Source: a virus. Taken from it: 40,324 nucleotides of DNA. The stretch's first letter is position 1; each line of letters begins with the position of its first letter. The stretch lies in the IMG/VR virus record IMGVR_UViG_3300022924_000012, positions 1-40,324 of that record; one strand, written 5' to 3'. The translations under genes and the position numbers were made by a program. The notes under the pieces were generated by a model, which was not told the origin of the DNA, did not search any database, and saw only the letters and a program-made list of their open reading frames with translations. Below, one piece after another: positions 14,125 through 40,324 of this stretch.

Positions 14125-14516
14125 ACTTTGCTAAGTAAGGTAATGGTAATTGTGTTTTCCGATTCTTTCAATTTAAAGTAATGCTTTTTGAGGTAGATTG
14201 AAAGTGTACACGAAGCCACGTTGTTCATCTTAGCGGACTGAATGATATCATTGGTAAACACAAATGACTCGATGCAATGAGCAATCTTTTCATTTTTAAA
14301 TGACCTCCTGATACGCGGCTTTAAAGGCTTTAATTTAAACTTCCTCATATAACGCCATATAAGCTCTGTAGTGAATCCAAGTTCGTTAGAAAGTGCTGAT
14401 ACCGTTTTAGATTTATAGTTCGCTATAACGTAGTTTAAATCAGTCTCATCGAAAACCTTAACCTTATACTTCTTACTTCGCTGATTGAAGTCTAATGGAT
14501 ACTTGTTTGAGTTCAT
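14121..14516 (-). CDS. Putative HTH protein (131 aa)
   Basis: The segment KTVSALSNELGFTTELIWRY and the following Lys/Arg-rich stretch resemble a helix-turn-helix. A second helix set (NDIIQSAKMNNVASCTLSIY) could be another HTH. It may bind DNA; no specific family is recognised. Confidence 0.55.
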   Translation of the reverse strand: MNSNKYPLDFNQRSKKYKVKVFDETDLNYVIANYKSKTVSALSNELGFTTELIWRYMRKFKLKPLKPRIRRSFKNEKIAHCIESFVFTNDIIQSAKMNNVASCTLSIYLKKHYFKLKESENTITITLLSKV

Positions 14517-15259
14517 TTATATCCGTTTTTAATTAACAATTGATAAATGTATTCCCTGCACATATAAGACCTGGTCTCGATCAATTTCTGAGCATCAGAA
14601 TCCGGCTCAAACTCAAATGATTTGATGCGCTTTTCTTCCGGTATTTCAACGAAAGTATCAAGTGTAGCATCTGAAAAGAAATGATGTTGCATAAGCTCAA
14701 ATTCCGCCTTTGAATAAACCATCCTTTCAGCCATTTTATAGCGTTCGTTGTGATCTGGCTTATACCTTACCGCATCTTCAAACGCTTCAAATGATGAGCT
14801 TATGAGTGTATAACAAAGCCAAAGTTTTTCAGACGGCCATAAGGTAGAATAGTTCTGCAACTGCCACCAGTACTTAGGATCTGGTATCTCGGTTTCAAAC
14901 ATAGGAAAGGTATCTAATGACCATGAACACTTATTATCGTAAGTCACCTTATTATGGTGTAGGTCACATTCACCAGACGCAAAGTCATTACGCCTTTTTT
15001 CGGTATTCTTATAGACCATGCCTAATTTCAATTGAACAGCCATTAAGGTAAATCCATCTTCTTCTGATTCATTGCCTTTTGCAACATACTTGTTTTTAAG
15101 CTCCTCTCTGCGTTTGAACAAAAATTCTTTTAGCCACTTTTTACAGTGCGTTTTAGCGCCTTCAGGTAACTCTCCTTTAGTATTTTTAGCCACAATTTCA
15201 ATCGTAGCACTTCCCCTTATTCTGAATGAATCGGCTATTTGTCTTGCAGTGAGTTCCAT
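14513..15259 (-). CDS. PD-(D/E)XK exonuclease (YqaJ/RecE-like) of the recombination pair
   Basis: 248 residues. The central GECDLHHN (about 97-103) and YDNKCSW (107-113) give a D...DxK arrangement typical of lambda-exonuclease/YqaJ-type nucleases, with upstream acidic residues. It directly follows, and overlaps by 25 bp, the annealing-protein gene, the classic exonuclease-plus-annealer pair that makes 3' single strands and anneals them for recombination-dependent replication. The family call rests on both the motif and this pairing. Confidence 0.72.
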   Translation of the reverse strand: MELTARQIADSFRIRGSATIEIVAKNTKGELPEGAKTHCKKWLKEFLFKRREELKNKYVAKGNESEEDGFTLMAVQLKLGMVYKNTEKRRNDFASGECDLHHNKVTYDNKCSWSLDTFPMFETEIPDPKYWWQLQNYSTLWPSEKLWLCYTLISSSFEAFEDAVRYKPDHNERYKMAERMVYSKAEFELMQHHFFSDATLDTFVEIPEEKRIKSFEFEPDSDAQKLIETRSYMCREYIYQLLIKNGYK

Positions 15260-15906
15260 TTTTCTTCGTAAAAGTGTTGAATGTTTTCGGTTAAATGTGG
15301 TTTAAGGTTTTCAAGTCCCGACAAAGTTTCAGTACCATCAATAAGCCTTACTACCCTATCTTCCTCTTTTGTTCTAACGTATTCGGTAAGCTTAGTGTCC
15401 ATTTGAAATGCAAGAACATCTTTACGGTTTAGATTCGCCCCGAATATGTCGCCCAATAAATCTGCAGCATCTTTTATAGCTATTGTTTTAGCGAGCGGAA
15501 ATGCCATTGATAAAGCACCATTGTTAATGTTAGCAAGGTCTGCCGGGGATGTGCCTTTAGCCGTTTGTAATTGAATAGCCCCTATGCCGTCCTGGCATTC
15601 CATCTGGCCAGTAAGTAGGTCTTGATACCATAGCCGGATAACAACGTAAACCCCATTGAATGATGTACCCTCGCGCAGTATTTCAATTCGGTATTTCTTG
15701 TATATCTTCTTAAGCAAGAACTCGATTTTTTCGATAGGCAGATACTTATAGTTACTAATATAAGGATGAACCTTTACCCATGATGCCGGGGGTGGTTGGT
15801 TAAGGTAGTGCATTAACTGATCCTGTTTTAATGCCAGATTTGGGTCTGCATAAAGTTCCTGAATGGTAGGCAACTTACTTTCTGAAATGCTTATTTCTGT
15901 ACTCAT
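15235..15906 (-). CDS. Single-strand DNA annealing protein (Red-beta/RecT/Rad52-like)
   Basis: 223 residues. The segments KYLPIEKIEFLLKKIYKKY, CQDGIGAIQLQT and AFPLAKTIAIKDAADLLG followed by FGANLNRKD are characteristic of phage annealing proteins, the last resembling the region conserved across Rad52/ERF-like members. It would coat exonuclease-generated single strands and promote annealing. Start at 15906 gives a normal length. Exact superfamily is uncertain. Confidence 0.75.
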   Translation of the reverse strand: MSTEISISESKLPTIQELYADPNLALKQDQLMHYLNQPPPASWVKVHPYISNYKYLPIEKIEFLLKKIYKKYRIEILREGTSFNGVYVVIRLWYQDLLTGQMECQDGIGAIQLQTAKGTSPADLANINNGALSMAFPLAKTIAIKDAADLLGDIFGANLNRKDVLAFQMDTKLTEYVRTKEEDRVVRLIDGTETLSGLENLKPHLTENIQHFYEEKWNSLQDK

Positions 15907-19091: not shown

Positions 19092-19259
19092 ATGATAACA
19101 ACTACTACTATTCGGCTTAATGACAGGGTCAAGAAAGCTGCACATGAAAAAGCAAAGAATCATCTTATAAGAGGTGGATTTTCGGTCTATGTAGAAAATC
19201 TTATTCGTGCTGACTTAAAAAAAGATGGTTTAACCTTTAATGCGGAGGAAAAGAAATGA
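19092..19259 (+). CDS. Ribbon-helix-helix regulator (55 aa)
   Basis: The product starts with a beta-strand-like ITTTTIRLNDRVKKAAHEKA and continues into a helix with FSVYVENLIRADLKK, the layout of Arc/CopG ribbon-helix-helix proteins, which bind DNA as dimers through the N-terminal strand. It lies in the divergent control region next to paired AT-rich repeats, so self-regulation and control of the early promoter are plausible. Its stop overlaps the next ATG. Confidence 0.68.
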   Translation: MITTTTIRLNDRVKKAAHEKAKNHLIRGGFSVYVENLIRADLKKDGLTFNAEEKK

Positions 19260-24935: not shown

Positions 24936-24953
24936 AACTGCTTATTAATTATA

Positions 24954-24961
24954 CAAATATA
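24954..24961 (-). promoter_or_regulatory. -7 element for the beta-helix gene
   Basis: TATATTTG on the minus strand, 18 nt before the ATG at 24935; -33 match is weak. Confidence 0.52.
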
Positions 24962-25006
24962 TAAATTAAACATAGCAATGCTTATACGGGATAAGACCTG
25001 TTTGAA

Positions 25007-25043
25007 AATCAGCTACAGTTAAGTAGTATTTAAAAGCCTGATT
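25007..25043 (-). terminator. Weak hairpin after the 56-aa ORF
   Basis: AATCAG (25007-25012) pairs with CTGATT (25038-25043), with an inner CTAC/GTAG stem. On the minus strand the outer stem ends in a short T-run. It may end the transcript of the small ORF at 25060. Confidence 0.35.
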
Positions 25044-25059
25044 AACTTAGCTTAAATTA

Positions 25060-25230
25060 TCAATTCCTACGGTGCCTGCCCTTGCAGATTGGAGGTAAGT
25101 TGTATTTTATCCTTTTCAGAATATCCCGACCATGTTGACGCCTATTGCTTAAAATCATTGCATGGATTTGTTTTCGTACAACCCGATAATAAAAACTTCC
25201 CGAACTTTTGTGTGACTTGCTTAGGGTCAT
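25060..25230 (-). CDS. Small basic protein, unknown (56 aa)
   Basis: The ATG at 25230 gives MTLSKSHKSSGSFYYRVVRK and a basic, Arg/Lys/His-rich chain ending CKGRHRRN. A longer frame to 25326 would run through a terminator hairpin, so the internal ATG is preferred. Nucleic acid binding is plausible from charge. A hairpin (25231-25254) lies directly before the ATG, and codons 2-5 are complementary to the 5' end of the predicted RNA from 25346. Confidence 0.5.
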   Translation of the reverse strand: MTLSKSHKSSGSFYYRVVRKQIHAMILSNRRQHGRDILKRIKYNLPPICKGRHRRN

Positions 25231-25254
25231 GCGGTGTTCTGTAACTGGAACCGC
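25231..25254 (-). promoter_or_regulatory. Hairpin directly upstream of the 56-aa ORF
   Basis: GCG and GTTC pair with GAAC and CGC around an 8-nt loop, with a 2-nt bulge. It ends at the base before the ATG and could limit ribosome access. Confidence 0.45.
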
Positions 25255-25261
25255 TATGGTG

Positions 25262-25292
25262 TAAAAATACAAAAACCCACTTGAATAAACAA
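25262..25292 (-). promoter_or_regulatory. Possible promoter of the 56-aa ORF
   Basis: TTG (25290-25292), 20-nt spacer and TATTTTTA (25262-25269) on the minus strand; the last base of the -7 box is A rather than G. It overlaps the terminator hairpin of the RNA unit upstream. Confidence 0.4.
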
Positions 25293-25346
25293 GCAGGTTT
25301 TTAATATTATCTTGACAAATAGGCAATGTGCAAGACGACCCTAAGC
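25268..25346 (-). ncRNA. Candidate small RNA (about 80 nt)
   Basis: A TATATTTG box (25351-25358) and a strong hairpin terminator (25271-25302) bracket about 80 nt with no ORF. The 5' end of this RNA holds the reverse complement of 25218-25228, i.e. 11 nt that would pair with codons 2-5 of the downstream 56-aa ORF. It may instead be the leader of that ORF, with the hairpin as an attenuator. Prediction from sequence only. Confidence 0.42.
25271..25302. terminator. Symmetrical intrinsic terminator
   Basis: AAAAACC (25271-25277) pairs with GGTTTTT (25296-25302), with an inner CTTG/CAAG stem and a 2x2 mismatch; loop AATAAA. It has an A-run before and a T-run after, so it can work on both strands. 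It would end minus-strand transcripts of the fibre block. Confidence 0.78.
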
Positions 25347-25350
25347 ATTA

Positions 25351-25358
25351 CAAATATA
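25351..25358 (-). promoter_or_regulatory. -7 element for the candidate small RNA
   Basis: TATATTTG on the minus strand, 18 bp after the stop of the 25376 gene. No convincing -33 box at the usual distance. Confidence 0.45.
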
Positions 25359-26011: not shown

Positions 26012-27483
26012 TATGGCTTAATTAGGATTGAGTAATTCAAGTTCGAAGATCCGTTAACAGGTGCAACGGAATAATTTATGGTAACTGTCGTGGATGTGAT
26101 GCTTGCAAACAATACGCCAGCACTAGCCGCATTTAATGGCTGTACAATGACTTTACTTGCCGTAGTAATACCAGACAACCCGTGAGTGATTACAATCGCT
26201 GTAGATGACCCGTTACCGCTTGCTGTGTAGTTTAGCATTGTGGGGATGCCTAGATCGGTAACGGTTTGCGTTAATGTCCTCTTTTGAAGTATATTTCCTG
26301 CTGACCATGTAGCGAAATCACCTGTAGCATTACCGACCGTACCGACTTGTAAAGATTTCTCGGTTGTATTTATAGTCCCTCCTGGGAATACCCCTGTTCC
26401 TGATGTTCCCCACGATAAAGGAAAAAATTGAGCAACAACCGTATTTAAACCAAATACTTCAGCAGTAACATTTATTTGCCTTGTCGAACCGCTATTACCT
26501 ATTATAGGGATATTTAAAACGCTGCTACCATCTAAAATTGGAGTGCCTATATTGATAGATCCTGCTAAAGTTCCAAGTGCGACTGTTGTATTTGACGTGA
26601 TAGAACTAATAGCAGATCCGGTAATTACAACGCTGTAATCTGTAACTATTATTCCTGTATAAGTGTTACTTGTTGAGTTTGAAGTAACAGTAAGCCTTAT
26701 AGATACATTGGTTGCGGCTGGTACTGCTAAGGTTCCGAACTTCAAATATTCAATACTTGTGTTTGAGGTCAGGTTTTTATTTACCGTTTGCTTTTTGCTA
26801 GCTGCACTTAATGGCTCATAATTGTCGCCCGTCCATGTTCTGCCAGCAAAAATATCCCAACTACCCCATGTCCCAGCGCCTGTTCCAACTCTAAAACTTA
26901 AAGAATTAGAAGAAGAAGCTTCTTTAGCTATTTGAAAACTTGAGTTAGCTGTAGCGCCATTTCTGAACATACTTAAAACAACTCCTGATGTCGCAGATGG
27001 AAAATTTGTAGCCGAACTGGAGTAAGTCCAAGCGTAAAGACCGCCATTTGTATTTGATAAAGTATTTGCGTCTGTTACTGAAGATGTGGCCAACGATGCA
27101 AGGGAAATGTTATTCCCTGCACTTATCGCTATATTTCCAGCGACGGCCCCCAAAGACAAAGTCTGTGGCGTTTCTGCTATTGTCCATGTTCTATTGGCAG
27201 ACAAATCATAAGTAACACCGTTTATAGTTATTGTTCTTGCCAATGGAGAATAGTTACCTAATACCCACATTTCGCTAGCCAGGTACTGATTCGCCGTGTT
27301 GTTCCTATAACCAAGTTTATTCGCTGTAGGATAAAAATTAATCCCCCCTACGCTGTCTATTGGCGGGTTATCTAAAGTTGGCGCACCGAGCCATGAAGTG
27401 AATTTAGTCCTTGTGTTATTTTTAATCTGCGCACTACAAATAGATGCACATAAAACCATAAATATTAATAATCTTGTTCTCAT
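26011..27483 (-). CDS. Fibre-like protein with Sec signal peptide (490 aa)
   Basis: The ATG at 27483 gives MRTRLLIFMVLCASICSAQ, a clear signal peptide; it lies 1 bp after the stop of the large fibre gene, while the 27549 start would overlap that gene by 65 bp. The mature protein has RTITINGVTYDLSANRTWT, a short repeat motif of Bacteroidota phage fibres, then long Ser/Thr/Asn-rich beta stretches and a C-terminal part like those of fibre tips (VTHGLSGITTASKVIVQPL-like, here ITHGLSGITTASKVIVQPL). Its role in adhesion is inferred from these motifs and from position. Confidence 0.68.
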   Translation of the reverse strand: MRTRLLIFMVLCASICSAQIKNNTRTKFTSWLGAPTLDNPPIDSVGGINFYPTANKLGYRNNTANQYLASEMWVLGNYSPLARTITINGVTYDLSANRTWTIAETPQTLSLGAVAGNIAISAGNNISLASLATSSVTDANTLSNTNGGLYAWTYSSSATNFPSATSGVVLSMFRNGATANSSFQIAKEASSSNSLSFRVGTGAGTWGSWDIFAGRTWTGDNYEPLSAASKKQTVNKNLTSNTSIEYLKFGTLAVPAATNVSIRLTVTSNSTSNTYTGIIVTDYSVVITGSAISSITSNTTVALGTLAGSINIGTPILDGSSVLNIPIIGNSGSTRQINVTAEVFGLNTVVAQFFPLSWGTSGTGVFPGGTINTTEKSLQVGTVGNATGDFATWSAGNILQKRTLTQTVTDLGIPTMLNYTASGNGSSTAIVITHGLSGITTASKVIVQPLNAASAGVLFASITSTTVTINYSVAPVNGSSNLNYSILIKP

Positions 27484-27484
27484 G

Positions 27485-30442
27485 TTAATTGAATAATTCT
27501 GGTGTGTCGATTTCAGCTCTGTTTGCCATAAGTATATTTCCAGCCGCATTAGGGTGAGTGCCGTCTATGTAAACCGATAAATTAGTGCCCTGCGCAGGAT
27601 CATTATTTATTGATGTTGCTATTTGCATTTTCATCCCATTTAAACCAGGTTTCGTTGCCCTGAATGCTTCGATAACAGCATTTTTTGCTACAGCATCAGT
27701 TGAACGCATGGGAGCATTATTGAATATAGGTATAGATCCAGCGGCTACTATCGCATTATAAAGTAATGGTAAATTGGCTTCTACTTCTGATACTTCTCCA
27801 TTAGTCCAAATCATAGCGTCTACGTATTTAGGCTTTAATTTACTTACTTCAGTAGCGACCCTGTTTAATCCTGAATTTACATCCCCGCCATTTCTCCCTG
27901 ACACCGTAGAATTTTGCCCTATTCTTGATGCGAGTATATAAGCCCATCCTTCACCAGGGCCTAACGGTACTGTTGTTGACTGAGTGATACTGTCGCCTAA
28001 GAAATAGACCAGTCCCCCGGCTTCAATCTCAGTAGATATTCTGATTCCACTTATAGTAAAATCTGTCCCGGAAAGTGTGGCAAAAGCAATGTTATCCAAC
28101 CATACCCTTACATTGGACTGATCAGTGCCAATGAATGTTTTTACCCCAGTCAAAGTGTCGTATATGTTTACGGTATAGCTTTGCTGAAACATATTGATTG
28201 CTAAATCAAAAATATATTTCCTTCCAGAAACGAAAGTGTATGGCGTAGTTATTAATGCTCCTTTTGACGTATTTGAACCATCATTACCATTGTGGATCAC
28301 TACATTATTATTTAAAGAGCTTACGCTGACCATAGCTCCATTTAGGGTGTTTAGGTTGCCTCCTGCAGGATTAGATCTGTTTAGAATAGCACCAGTGACA
28401 TTTGCACCTAAAACAAAAGGTATTTGATACTTCCTTACCGCTAGATTATAATCTAGCCTGTGAATGATTAAATTGGCTAAACCAGCAGTAGACGCTTTTA
28501 TTCCCCCTGTTACCTTAACCCAGTCCGTATTGACAAAATTGCTAGGAATGGTTGATTCTGTGAATTTTTCGTCAAGCAAAAGAGTCCCACCCGAATTATT
28601 CGGAACAACAGACTCTGGAGCATCGTATAAGGATTCTTTAATTTTTCCATAAGATACCGTTGTTCTTTTTGCCGAAGCAGTAGCAGCGTCAGCATTCTTG
28701 AAATTGAAAACAACTTTAGCGGCAGTATTAAGGGATAAAGGAATAACTGGCGTATAAGCCCCGTTTTCAAGTGGAAAATCAGAAAGTAATAAGTTTCCAA
28801 TAGCCACATTCGATGAGTTGAAAACTTTACCCAAAATACTTGGGGTTACGTTTATAGATACGAATCCTGTTAAATTAAAGGCTTCACCTGGCGCAGCGTC
28901 AATAAAGTTTGAGTGTGAAGTAGAGCTTGATGACTGAACTGTGCCAGATGAAGATGAATAGTAGCCAGTAATAGCCTCTGTTATTAAATTACTGCCTGTA
29001 GGCGTATATTCAGCATCAAATAAGTCCCCATTAGTAGGCCGAACCGATAAAGCGGTATCAACTGTTTTCATTTTGGAGACGTAATCACTTTTAGCTACTA
29101 TTTTAGTAGTAGTGAAACTTTCTTTTCCATGATTAGCCAAAAACCTACCCCTTTCGATTACGCAATATTCGCCCCTCAGATTTTCAGGCAAAGAGAAAGA
29201 GGCTACCAATGACCCATTTTTATAGATATTTAAAATTTGTACGGTTTTAAATATTAACTCAAACCTAATGATGTCTGTTACTGGAACATAAGTCGGTGCT
29301 GTTGCAAGCACCGTCTGTTCGCTATAATTCTTTTGTTTAAATATACTACCATCAATCCGGTAAACATAGCCAAATGGCACACCGTCACCGTCAGAGGGAA
29401 GACAGCCAATACCCATAGAAGCATTACCTGTTACAATTGATCTAATGAAAGAATCCGTCACCATAACGGTATCTAAGTTTATATCTGGCGTAATAGGGAA
29501 ACTGCTTACATTTTTACCTGTTCTGTAGTAAAGACATATATTAACATCCCCTGATGATCGCCCAAAATCTACGCTACTTCCTAAATCCGTCTGTGTAACG
29601 CTACTATAGTTCTCCTGATAAACACCTGCCGCAGTATATGCACGAAAAGGCAATGGGGCAACATAGTCGATAACTGAAACATCAGCTATGACTGCAGCTA
29701 AAGCGTCGAATTGAGCCTTAGAAACAATGGTAGCTGGTATGATTGCGGATGACCCTGCGTTTTTATACTTCGCTATAATTCTATCGCCAGCACCTAAAGG
29801 GGTAGGCAGTGTTATTGTTCCAGTCGCAAGATCAAAATTTAAAGTTCCGTCAATCTCGCTAGCTGTGTTAGTGTCATTGTCGATATAAATAACTGATTTA
29901 TTTATAATCACATGATCTACGAACCTACCTATTAACGATGGGAACACAAACAGCGTTTGTCCTTCTGTTGCGGTAACTATGTCTGTCCAATAATATAAAG
30001 TGTCCTGCACAGTCTCGGTTAAGTCGCCAATTTGCGAGGTTAACGCACCATCAGCAGAAAGCCTGTTTGATGTTTCTTCCGCTAACTGTCCAGATATAAC
30101 ATCTAATTGCCCGTTTAAAACTGAGATTAAAGAGTTAATGTCATCTTGGCTATATCCGTTAGATACCTTCTTTTCCAGCGTTACCGAATCCCTAAACCAA
30201 TAAGCATCATTAATACCGCCTGTAATGCGACCATCAGAACCTAGTACACCGCCTGTATTTACGATACACTCAAAAGTCGGGTCTTTAAACTCATCAGCAA
30301 AATAGTTCTGACATTCCGACACGCTTACAAATTGCCTGTATAATTGCCTGGCATTATCATAATACAAAGACTTTGCATTTAACGGCAAGTCAGTTATTCC
30401 AAAAGGTATATTTTGCGGCTTGTGGTCTGATGGATTATACAT
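27485..30442 (-). CDS. Tail fibre with C-terminal SGNH/GDSL esterase domain (985 aa)
   Basis: The N terminus (ITDLPLNAKSLYYDNARQLY) probably anchors to the tail. Residues about 95-150 form a coiled coil (VLNGQLDVISGQLAEETSN). A long beta-rich middle follows. The last 175 residues are an SGNH hydrolase: FLGDSIT with Ser818, NGE with Asn881, DGTHPN with Asp960 and His963. Such domains remove acetyl or acyl groups from surface polysaccharide, helping the phage reach its receptor. Family: structural fibre carrying an enzyme tip. It overlaps the head-tail adaptor-like gene by 8 bp. Confidence 0.87.
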   Translation of the reverse strand: MYNPSDHKPQNIPFGITDLPLNAKSLYYDNARQLYRQFVSVSECQNYFADEFKDPTFECIVNTGGVLGSDGRITGGINDAYWFRDSVTLEKKVSNGYSQDDINSLISVLNGQLDVISGQLAEETSNRLSADGALTSQIGDLTETVQDTLYYWTDIVTATEGQTLFVFPSLIGRFVDHVIINKSVIYIDNDTNTASEIDGTLNFDLATGTITLPTPLGAGDRIIAKYKNAGSSAIIPATIVSKAQFDALAAVIADVSVIDYVAPLPFRAYTAAGVYQENYSSVTQTDLGSSVDFGRSSGDVNICLYYRTGKNVSSFPITPDINLDTVMVTDSFIRSIVTGNASMGIGCLPSDGDGVPFGYVYRIDGSIFKQKNYSEQTVLATAPTYVPVTDIIRFELIFKTVQILNIYKNGSLVASFSLPENLRGEYCVIERGRFLANHGKESFTTTKIVAKSDYVSKMKTVDTALSVRPTNGDLFDAEYTPTGSNLITEAITGYYSSSSGTVQSSSSTSHSNFIDAAPGEAFNLTGFVSINVTPSILGKVFNSSNVAIGNLLLSDFPLENGAYTPVIPLSLNTAAKVVFNFKNADAATASAKRTTVSYGKIKESLYDAPESVVPNNSGGTLLLDEKFTESTIPSNFVNTDWVKVTGGIKASTAGLANLIIHRLDYNLAVRKYQIPFVLGANVTGAILNRSNPAGGNLNTLNGAMVSVSSLNNNVVIHNGNDGSNTSKGALITTPYTFVSGRKYIFDLAINMFQQSYTVNIYDTLTGVKTFIGTDQSNVRVWLDNIAFATLSGTDFTISGIRISTEIEAGGLVYFLGDSITQSTTVPLGPGEGWAYILASRIGQNSTVSGRNGGDVNSGLNRVATEVSKLKPKYVDAMIWTNGEVSEVEANLPLLYNAIVAAGSIPIFNNAPMRSTDAVAKNAVIEAFRATKPGLNGMKMQIATSINNDPAQGTNLSVYIDGTHPNAAGNILMANRAEIDTPELFN

Positions 30443-31181: not shown

Positions 31182-31739
31182 ATGAAAAAGATAAGCACGT
31201 TATTTAAGAAAGACCCCAATGATTTGGGTAGAGTCGTTAACGAGATTAATCCTGAAAACGAATGGGTATTCGATGAAAGAGTTAAGGCAACTAGAAAATG
31301 GGATGGTACTGCATGCGCGATCATCGATGGTGAATTGTATAAGCGTTACGATGTTAAAAAAGGCAAAGCGGTTCCTGAAAATGCAATCCCCTGTCAAGAA
31401 CCAGACTTTATTACTGGACATTGGCCACACTGGATAAAATGCGATAGATCAGAGAACGGTAACAAGTGGCATTTTGAGGCATTTGATTCCGATCTTAATT
31501 TAGCTGACGGAACTTATGAGTTAATCGGGCCAAAAATACAAGGCAATCCAGAGAGGGTTATTAAGCATATTCTGATGAAGCATGGAGAATTTGAGCTTAA
31601 TATCCTTAGACATAATAAGCCTACATTCGATACTATATGCTATCATCTTATGGAATGGGATATTGAAGGTATTGTATTCCATCATCCAGATGGCAGAATG
31701 TGTAAAATAAGAAAGTCGGATTTCGGCTTCAAAAGATAA
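31182..31739 (+). CDS. RNA ligase-like nucleotidyltransferase (DUF5565-type)
   Basis: 185 residues with the motifs of the covalent nucleotidyltransferases: motif I ATRKWDGTACAI with Lys39 as the nucleotide acceptor (KxDG), a motif-III-like FEAF/GTYELIGPKIQG region (98-121), motif IV IEGIVFH (161-167) and motif V CKIRKSDF (174-181). No OB fold follows, so this is a minimal ligase of RNA-ligase type rather than a DNA ligase. It would seal RNA ends using ATP, and could repair tRNAs cut by host anticodon nucleases. It is a lone plus-strand gene between two minus-strand tail genes, with promoter and terminator of its own. Family name is from memory. Confidence 0.8.
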   Translation: MKKISTLFKKDPNDLGRVVNEINPENEWVFDERVKATRKWDGTACAIIDGELYKRYDVKKGKAVPENAIPCQEPDFITGHWPHWIKCDRSENGNKWHFEAFDSDLNLADGTYELIGPKIQGNPERVIKHILMKHGEFELNILRHNKPTFDTICYHLMEWDIEGIVFHHPDGRMCKIRKSDFGFKR

Positions 31740-39553: not shown

Positions 39554-40324
39554 TTATGCTAACGCTGCACTTCCGAGTATAAAATAGTCGGGGCCGTACA
39601 CGGGCAAAGCAACTGTTTCCTCAATACGGCAAGTAACCTGATTCGTACGAACGTTGGTTGAATCTTGCTCAAAGAATTCAATTTGCATTGCCTCCTGAAC
39701 ATAAAGCTCAGTTCCACGCTCGAAATCACCTACAACATAATCGTTGGCATTCAAAGCAGTAGTCTTAGCCAATGGTACACCTAAAATGTACGGGCGACCG
39801 TTAACAATTGAAACTCCATCAGGCAAATCGTATTCGCCAGATCCGGCAGCCTTATTTTTGATAAGGTTATACCATTGAGCCGGACGTAAAGCGATACCCG
39901 TAGCCATACGTTTATAAGTGTCCTCCAATAATGATAGATCGTTGATGATCTTCTCAATTAATGGAGTAGTACCTGCAGCAGATCCAGCAACATAGTTACC
40001 AGAAGTCAAGATACCTTTTATGTTTGGCGAAGTACCGTTACCATAAAGGATTTGAGCATCTTCAACATCACGTAATTTTTCAGGCAAGCGATAGTTAAGG
40101 AAAGCCATTAATCCAGGTATGTTACGCATTGCTTTTTTGGACAATAACAACCAACCTGCGATAGTTTCAAACTTAACTGATGCTTCTACCAAATCTAAAT
40201 CAAACTGAGGTTTTAAACCTGTAGCCTGAGTGGTCGGAGTTGCGGCAGATGTTGCCTCAGCGGTTGGAGCGATTGAACCTTCACCTGTACCGTTTTCACG
40301 CATGAAGTAGAAATCAGTACCAGG
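39554..40324 (-). CDS. Major capsid protein, C-terminal part (5' end beyond window)
   Basis: C-terminal 257 residues of the HK97-fold major capsid protein; its 5' end is at 1-640 after circularisation. The sequence GWLLLSKKAMRN, the stretch around DVEDAQILYGNG, the segment PRPYILGVPLAKT-like (here GRPYILGVPLAKT) and the C-terminal RIEETVALPVYGPDYF are typical of the P-domain and A-domain of this family. The gene ends 13 bp before a symmetrical hairpin terminator shared with the convergent gene at 39157-39507, so the protease-capsid transcript probably stops here. Confidence 0.93.
   Translation of the reverse strand, partial: PGTDFYFMRENGTGEGSIAPTAEATSAATPTTQATGLKPQFDLDLVEASVKFETIAGWLLLSKKAMRNIPGLMAFLNYRLPEKLRDVEDAQILYGNGTSPNIKGILTSGNYVAGSAAGTTPLIEKIINDLSLLEDTYKRMATGIALRPAQWYNLIKNKAAGSGEYDLPDGVSIVNGRPYILGVPLAKTTALNANDYVVGDFERGTELYVQEAMQIEFFEQDSTNVRTNQVTCRIEETVALPVYGPDYFILGSAALA
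40198..40324. repeat. Terminal direct repeat, copy 2
   Basis: Second copy of the 127-base overlap, identical to 1-127. One copy should be removed when the genome is circularised. Confidence 0.95.

Follow-up and report, generated by a model that had tools for sequence, protein, structure and literature searches.

The locus and its setting in the phage genome

The window analysed here is an entire IMG/VR virus record (40,324 bases). The record begins and ends inside the major capsid gene, with the same capsid protein stretch (PGTDFYFMRENGTGEGS...GLKPQFD) in both end regions (1-640 and 39554-40324), and it therefore appears to be circularly permuted, with an end repeat inside this gene. In its terminase, capsid, protease and several tail proteins, the phage resembles Flavobacterium phage 11b and Cellulophaga phage phi10:1, which makes a Bacteroidota host probable. 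The late genes are on the minus strand, and no tRNA genes were found in the 40-kb window.

Within the late region, all of the elements named in an earlier sequence-only reading were found on the minus strand where it had placed them. In minus-strand order these are the box TATATTTG (25358-25351), TAA, TGCTTAGGGTC (25347-25337), a hairpin (25302-25271), a second hairpin (25254-25231), and ATGACCCTAAGCA with the complement at 25228-25218. The two 11-nt segments, 25347-25337 and 25228-25218, are perfectly complementary, and the second hairpin ends at the ATG of a 56-aa ORF that runs from 25230 to 25060. Inverted repeats of 11 nt at this spacing are not rare in the window as a whole (3 seen, 2.25 expected), while within this 440-bp gap one was seen against 0.047 expected. 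Because such a repeat is not rare across an AT-rich 40-kb window, comparative data were required.

Using the 56-aa ORF as a query, we found three further IMG/VR phage contigs (L002, L003 and L004), the match reflecting DNA conservation. From the TATATTTG box to the next gene, the sequence is conserved as a block of 426–436 bp with 80–83% DNA identity. The conserved feature is thus larger than earlier noted, with conserved DNA extending from ~25368 to 24943. The parts of the locus, all on the minus strand, are as follows.

25351-25358, minus strand: sigma-A type -7 box TATATTTG, directly before P1 in 4/4 loci
24972-25346, minus strand: putative extent of the structured RNA, ~375 nt with an approximate 3' end, from the 426–436 bp conserved block and the consensus fold
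25337-25347, minus strand: P1 5' arm, formerly read as an antisense segment; pairs with 25228-25218
25218-25228, minus strand: P1 3' arm, formerly read as its target; pairs with 25347-25337
25309-25336, minus strand: P2 hairpin, arms 25336-25331 and 25314-25309, loop of variable length; 4 of 6 pairs changed on both sides
25272-25301, minus strand: P3 hairpin of 12 bp, formerly read as a terminator; inside P1, 100% of cells paired
25231-25254, minus strand: P4 hairpin with a conserved UUCCACUUACAGAA-like loop; 2 of 5 pairs changed on both sides
24972-25217, minus strand: domain II, the 3' domain; 83–90% identity between phages
25097-25184, minus strand: P5 (25184-25177 with 25104-25097), enclosing P6–P8; from the consensus fold
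25130-25165, minus strand: P6 stem CCAUG/CAUGG with P7 inside; two double changes in L003 (CUGCG/CGUAG)
25108-25123, minus strand: P8 hairpin; double change U-G / U-A / C-G
25075-25088, minus strand: P9 hairpin UCUGC-AAGG-GCAGG; invariant, neither for nor against
25007-25043, minus strand: P10/P11 hairpin; P10 has two double changes and P11 covaries when aligned manually
24987-25202, minus strand: domain II closing pairs, CGGGA (25202-25198) with UCCCG (24991-24987); predicted only, invariant
near 25128-25122, minus strand: CGGGAUA, predicted alternative partner of UAUCCCG
25060-25230, minus strand: 56-aa ORF, not a gene; frame broken in 3/3 relatives

The RNA lies between genes and interrupts none. 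Tail-fibre-like or small late genes are found upstream. Downstream, the next gene differs in all four phages: in the window it encodes a 397-aa protein without a family match, in L002 a 56-aa protein followed by an HNH nuclease and a GH108 endolysin, in L003 a GH24 lysozyme, and in L004 an M15 endolysin followed by a nuclease gene. In three of the four phages the RNA is at the start of the lysis module; the GH19-like endolysin of the window is further along and does not adjoin it. We also observed that in L003 the RNA is flanked by near-identical, inverted phage lysozyme genes (92-607 and 1417-1884), possibly a real duplication or an assembly or amplification artefact.

The RNA is the DNA of highest identity shared between the window and the other carriers. 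Tail and endolysin genes of the carriers are unrelated to those of the window, and no structural proteins common to the window and the other three carriers were found. What they do have in common are replication and recombination genes, including a 338-aa helicase-like protein (75%) and a 223-aa protein (52–62%). The latter (window 15235-15906 and 14513-15259, minus strand) is common to three of the four carriers and is possibly a recombinase, judged only by its place beside an exonuclease gene. Two of the genomes, G001 and G003, are closely related. Elsewhere in the window, a 55-aa protein (19092-19259, plus strand), possibly a small DNA-binding protein, is encoded by DNA that shares 77% identity with G001 across 147 bp, unlike its surroundings. 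In the tail region, a 985-aa protein (27485-30442, minus strand) has a GDSL lipase/acylhydrolase domain near its C terminus and is possibly a receptor- or capsule-modifying esterase. An RNA ligase-like protein (31182-31739; Pfam RLIG1, E 1e-6), with a 56% identical homologue in phi10:1, is encoded on the opposite strand within the tail gene block.

Covariation and folding across four phages

The 56-aa ORF is broken in every relative. Its frame carries 1-nt indels in L002 and L003 and indels of 1, 2, 4 and 2 nt in L004, in-frame stops interrupt it in all three, and substitutions in the region are spread roughly evenly across codon positions. We therefore rejected the ORF as a gene. The 11-nt pairing, in contrast, is kept by compensatory changes: the arms are TGCTTAGGGTC/GACCCTAAGCA in the window, TGCTTAACGGT/ACCGTTAAGCA in L002 and L004, and TGCTAATGGTC/GACCATTAGCA in L003, so that 5 of the 11 pairs have changed on both sides, all compensatory, with 100% of cells paired. 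Since the ORF is lost while the pairing covaries, the pairing is best understood as the closing stem, P1, of one longer RNA. The sequence-only reading was right that this complementarity matters and that a non-coding RNA lies on the minus strand starting at the TATATTTG box. However, it was wrong in describing two units, an 80-nt RNA acting on the ORF: the sequence features are real but belong to one RNA, with the two arms covarying as a single stem. Likewise, what it had called a strong terminator at 25271-25302 is the internal hairpin P3, nested within P1, and the second candidate promoter that it proposed, TTG-N20-TATTTTTA, is present in the window inside P3 and is not conserved in the three relatives.

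P1 closes domain I and encloses P2, P3 and P4. P3, which is followed by a U-rich stretch, has one double change and four one-sided changes, and 90% of cells are paired in P4. In general, domain I (34 pairs) has 98.5% of cells paired and 12 pairs with double changes, and its covariation score of 0.495 compares with 0.197 +/- 0.048 in shuffles (0/500 as high) and with at most 0.086 in slid controls. Domain II, with 53 predicted pairs, has 99.5% of cells paired and 6 doubly changed pairs, its main measures reached in 0/500 shuffles; here the innermost pair of P5 changes from A-U to U-A in L004, where the shorter loop was aligned by hand. Because the helices were picked by inspecting the same sequences, the percentages paired are biased upward, and the fairer measures are the double-change count and the slid controls. 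Over the whole fold there are 18 pairs with compensatory double changes in the two domains, slid controls are near zero, and the double-change count and covariation score were equalled in 0/500 shuffles, as were most measures. There are four sequences in the alignment, and as two come from related phages they represent about three lineages. MAFFT on whole sequences misaligned P1 and P2, so the helix arms were placed manually and recounted on an ungapped set.

RNAalifold on the hand-made alignment recovered the same helices, and indeed the check on relatives that the sequence-only reading had proposed gave a conserved pairing and a consensus of -86.2 kcal/mol, compared to -36.9 +/- 4.4 for 100 column-shuffled alignments (z -11.3). 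The fold contains 40 G-U cells that become A-C mismatches on the opposite strand, where the consensus fold is worse (-68 vs -86 kcal/mol), and the RNA is therefore assigned to the minus strand. Two further interactions, a pseudoknot CAAUG x CAUUG and the alternative helix CGGGAUA x UAUCCCG, are possible but unsupported, both being invariant. Compensatory base changes across relatives are the general criterion for a structured non-coding RNA, and with these changes in hand we regard the existence of such an RNA at this locus as almost certain.

Predicted promoter, 3' edge and distribution

The sigma-A box of F. psychrophilum, TAnnTTTG, occupies positions -12 to -5 (PMC9723704). Applying this spacing, which is taken from a relative of the presumed host, to TATATTTG, transcription should start at 25346, the first G-C pair of P1. 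Upstream of the -7 box, TTTG is found at 20 nt in L002 and L003 and TTG at 17 nt in L004. The window has the -7 box only, with no clear -33 element, and as the upstream TTTG is missing, the promoter there may be weaker.

The 3' limit of the RNA (~24972, with the conserved block continuing to 24943) was set by conservation, and no terminator was found after this edge. At this edge (24949-24980 in the window), a TAnnTTTG box is present between the RNA and the next ATG in all four loci, 4 to ~20 nt ahead of the ATG. Thus the last conserved bases (GCATTGCTATG) may be part of this downstream promoter rather than of the RNA. Messenger RNAs starting from the box would be very short or leaderless.

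The sequence-only reading held that no known riboswitch or retron fits, and Rfam 15 bears this out: no family matched the window at gathering thresholds, and the region gave only unrelated weak hits up to E 10. Nothing relevant was found in annotated phage and plasmid collections, and an exact 22-mer scan of genome contigs returned none. Protein and DNA-pattern scans of IMG/VR for further relatives (several motifs, exact and gapped) gave only the same three contigs or chance 17-mers; the candidates L005 and L006 were among the latter. In Bacteroidota genomes, model R1 gave no member and only weak hits in ~1,140, and the structured model R2 gave only weak hits in two draws of 395 genomes, some in both, the large genome scans having used stricter filters by which weak or very divergent matches could be lost. 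The candidates L021-L029 were judged to be chance, as they are short and patchy and score 11–23 bits, compared to 209–240 bits for true members as a positive control. The safest reading is a rare, phage-restricted family.

In related isolates the tail-lysis junction is too tight to accommodate the RNA: in phage 11b, the end of gene 46 at 27210 is followed by the start of gene 47 at 27215, and the junctions of the Cellulophaga phages phi18:1 and phi10:1 are likewise closed. Model R2 did not match the isolates 11b, phi10:1, phi18:1 or P12002L. The RNA therefore behaves as an accessory element.

Interpretation and comparison with known systems

We think it likely that the locus encodes a stand-alone, trans-acting structured RNA of ~375 nt, carried as a moron-like accessory cassette by some tailed Bacteroidota phages. 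A host-type sigma-A promoter would start the RNA at the first pair of P1, which closes domain I around its three hairpins, and domain II, as a nearly invariant branched fold, would probably carry the activity. That domain II is so invariant (83–90% identity at the DNA level and little variation in its pairs) suggests a surface largely engaged in contacts, whether with a protein, the ribosome or further copies of the RNA. It could be imagined to offer a host or phage protein, or the ribosome, a platform for binding, or to form an RNA-only assembly.

A cis role, as a long leader of the lysis operon lying in the 5' UTR and controlling readthrough or translation of the next genes with P3 as a conditional terminator, would account for several features of the locus, but we consider it unlikely. 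The RNA is on the same strand as the late genes and directly precedes an endolysin or small lysis-module gene in three of the four phages, and P3 is terminator-like, with the U-rich stretch after it, and could terminate some transcripts. However, P3 lies inside P1 with no visible conserved competing helix, the next genes are unrelated in the four phages (that of the window is no recognisable lysis gene), and a separate TAnnTTTG box, downstream of the RNA, precedes the ATG of each. An RNA before four different gene sets with a promoter-like box after it disfavours a gene-specific leader. The sequence-only reading had also offered one leader with an attenuator, and the anatomy is indeed closer to this than to two units; its cis action is what the changing downstream genes and their own boxes weaken.

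The other explanation in that reading, an 80-nt trans RNA blocking a 56-aa basic peptide in the style of a type I toxin-antitoxin pair, draws on the perfect complementarity and the ORF in the window; we find it scarcely credible, given that indels and stops have destroyed the ORF in every relative, that substitutions are even across codon positions, and that the two arms covary as a single stem within a larger fold. A DNA element, such as a packaging, replication or recombination site with hairpins acting as single-stranded DNA, is very improbable: the hairpins are strong and near a gene-module junction, but the G-U cells support the fold on one strand only and the promoter box is at the 5' edge in 4/4 loci. 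Also improbable, if a little less so, is the remnant of a ribozyme-type mobile element, either a group I or II intron that lacks an ORF or a guide RNA resembling omega-RNA. The accessory presence of the RNA in mosaic phages would suit such an origin, as would the nuclease genes (HNH or endonuclease VII-like) that follow it at a distance of one or two genes in two relatives. Nevertheless, neither the Rfam intron models nor HEARO matched even at E 10, no gene is interrupted by the RNA, and the nuclease genes are of different families and absent beside the RNA in the window.

Beyond the stand-alone trans-acting RNA that we favour, we put forward, tentatively and as a possibility that may well not hold, a new class of phage RNA machine unrelated to GOLLD and ROOL: a mobile, RNA-only accessory gene among Bacteroidota phages, with a trans effect on the host that might, for instance, involve ribosomes, the lysis decision or a defence system. 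If this is true, the sequence of an RNA machine is held more strictly than the surrounding tail and lysis genes. Few large structured phage RNAs are known and their roles are still open. The present RNA is compact, strongly supported by covariation, beside lysis genes, and better conserved than the rest of the DNA common to these phages and the window; were an RNA-only accessory gene to pass between otherwise unrelated phages, it would be a simple, testable system for finding out what such RNAs do. Conserved genes of this kind are overlooked by protein-only phage annotation.

Among known systems, type I toxin-antitoxin pairs share with this locus a small basic ORF and a complementary RNA in the window only, but the ORF is not conserved (broken in 3/3 relatives) and the complementarity is an internal stem. 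Group I and group II introns differ in that there is no Rfam match and the present RNA sits between genes. The Bacteroidota RNAs 6S-flavo, Bacteroidales-1, Flavo-1 and Bacteroides-1 are in Rfam (table in PMC2864571) and are, like the present RNA, structured RNAs of the likely host phylum, but there is no match to them and the present RNA is found only in phage contigs. GOLLD, an RNA of unknown function that likewise has a conserved 3' part and a variable 5' part, is a phage RNA whose expression is reported to rise during lysis, and ROOL is a phage or prophage RNA with an elaborate fold and no known partner (PMC12286853); in comparison, the present RNA is near lysis genes. The formation of homo-oligomeric RNA cages is a further trait of GOLLD and ROOL. 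GOLLD is often >800 nt and often near tRNA islands, whereas the present RNA is ~375 nt in a window without tRNA, and ROOL is often near tRNA genes and has a different fold. Neither Rfam covariance model matched the window at gathering score or the region up to E 10. By this test the present RNA is a member of neither family, and its resemblance to GOLLD and ROOL is one of general kind only.
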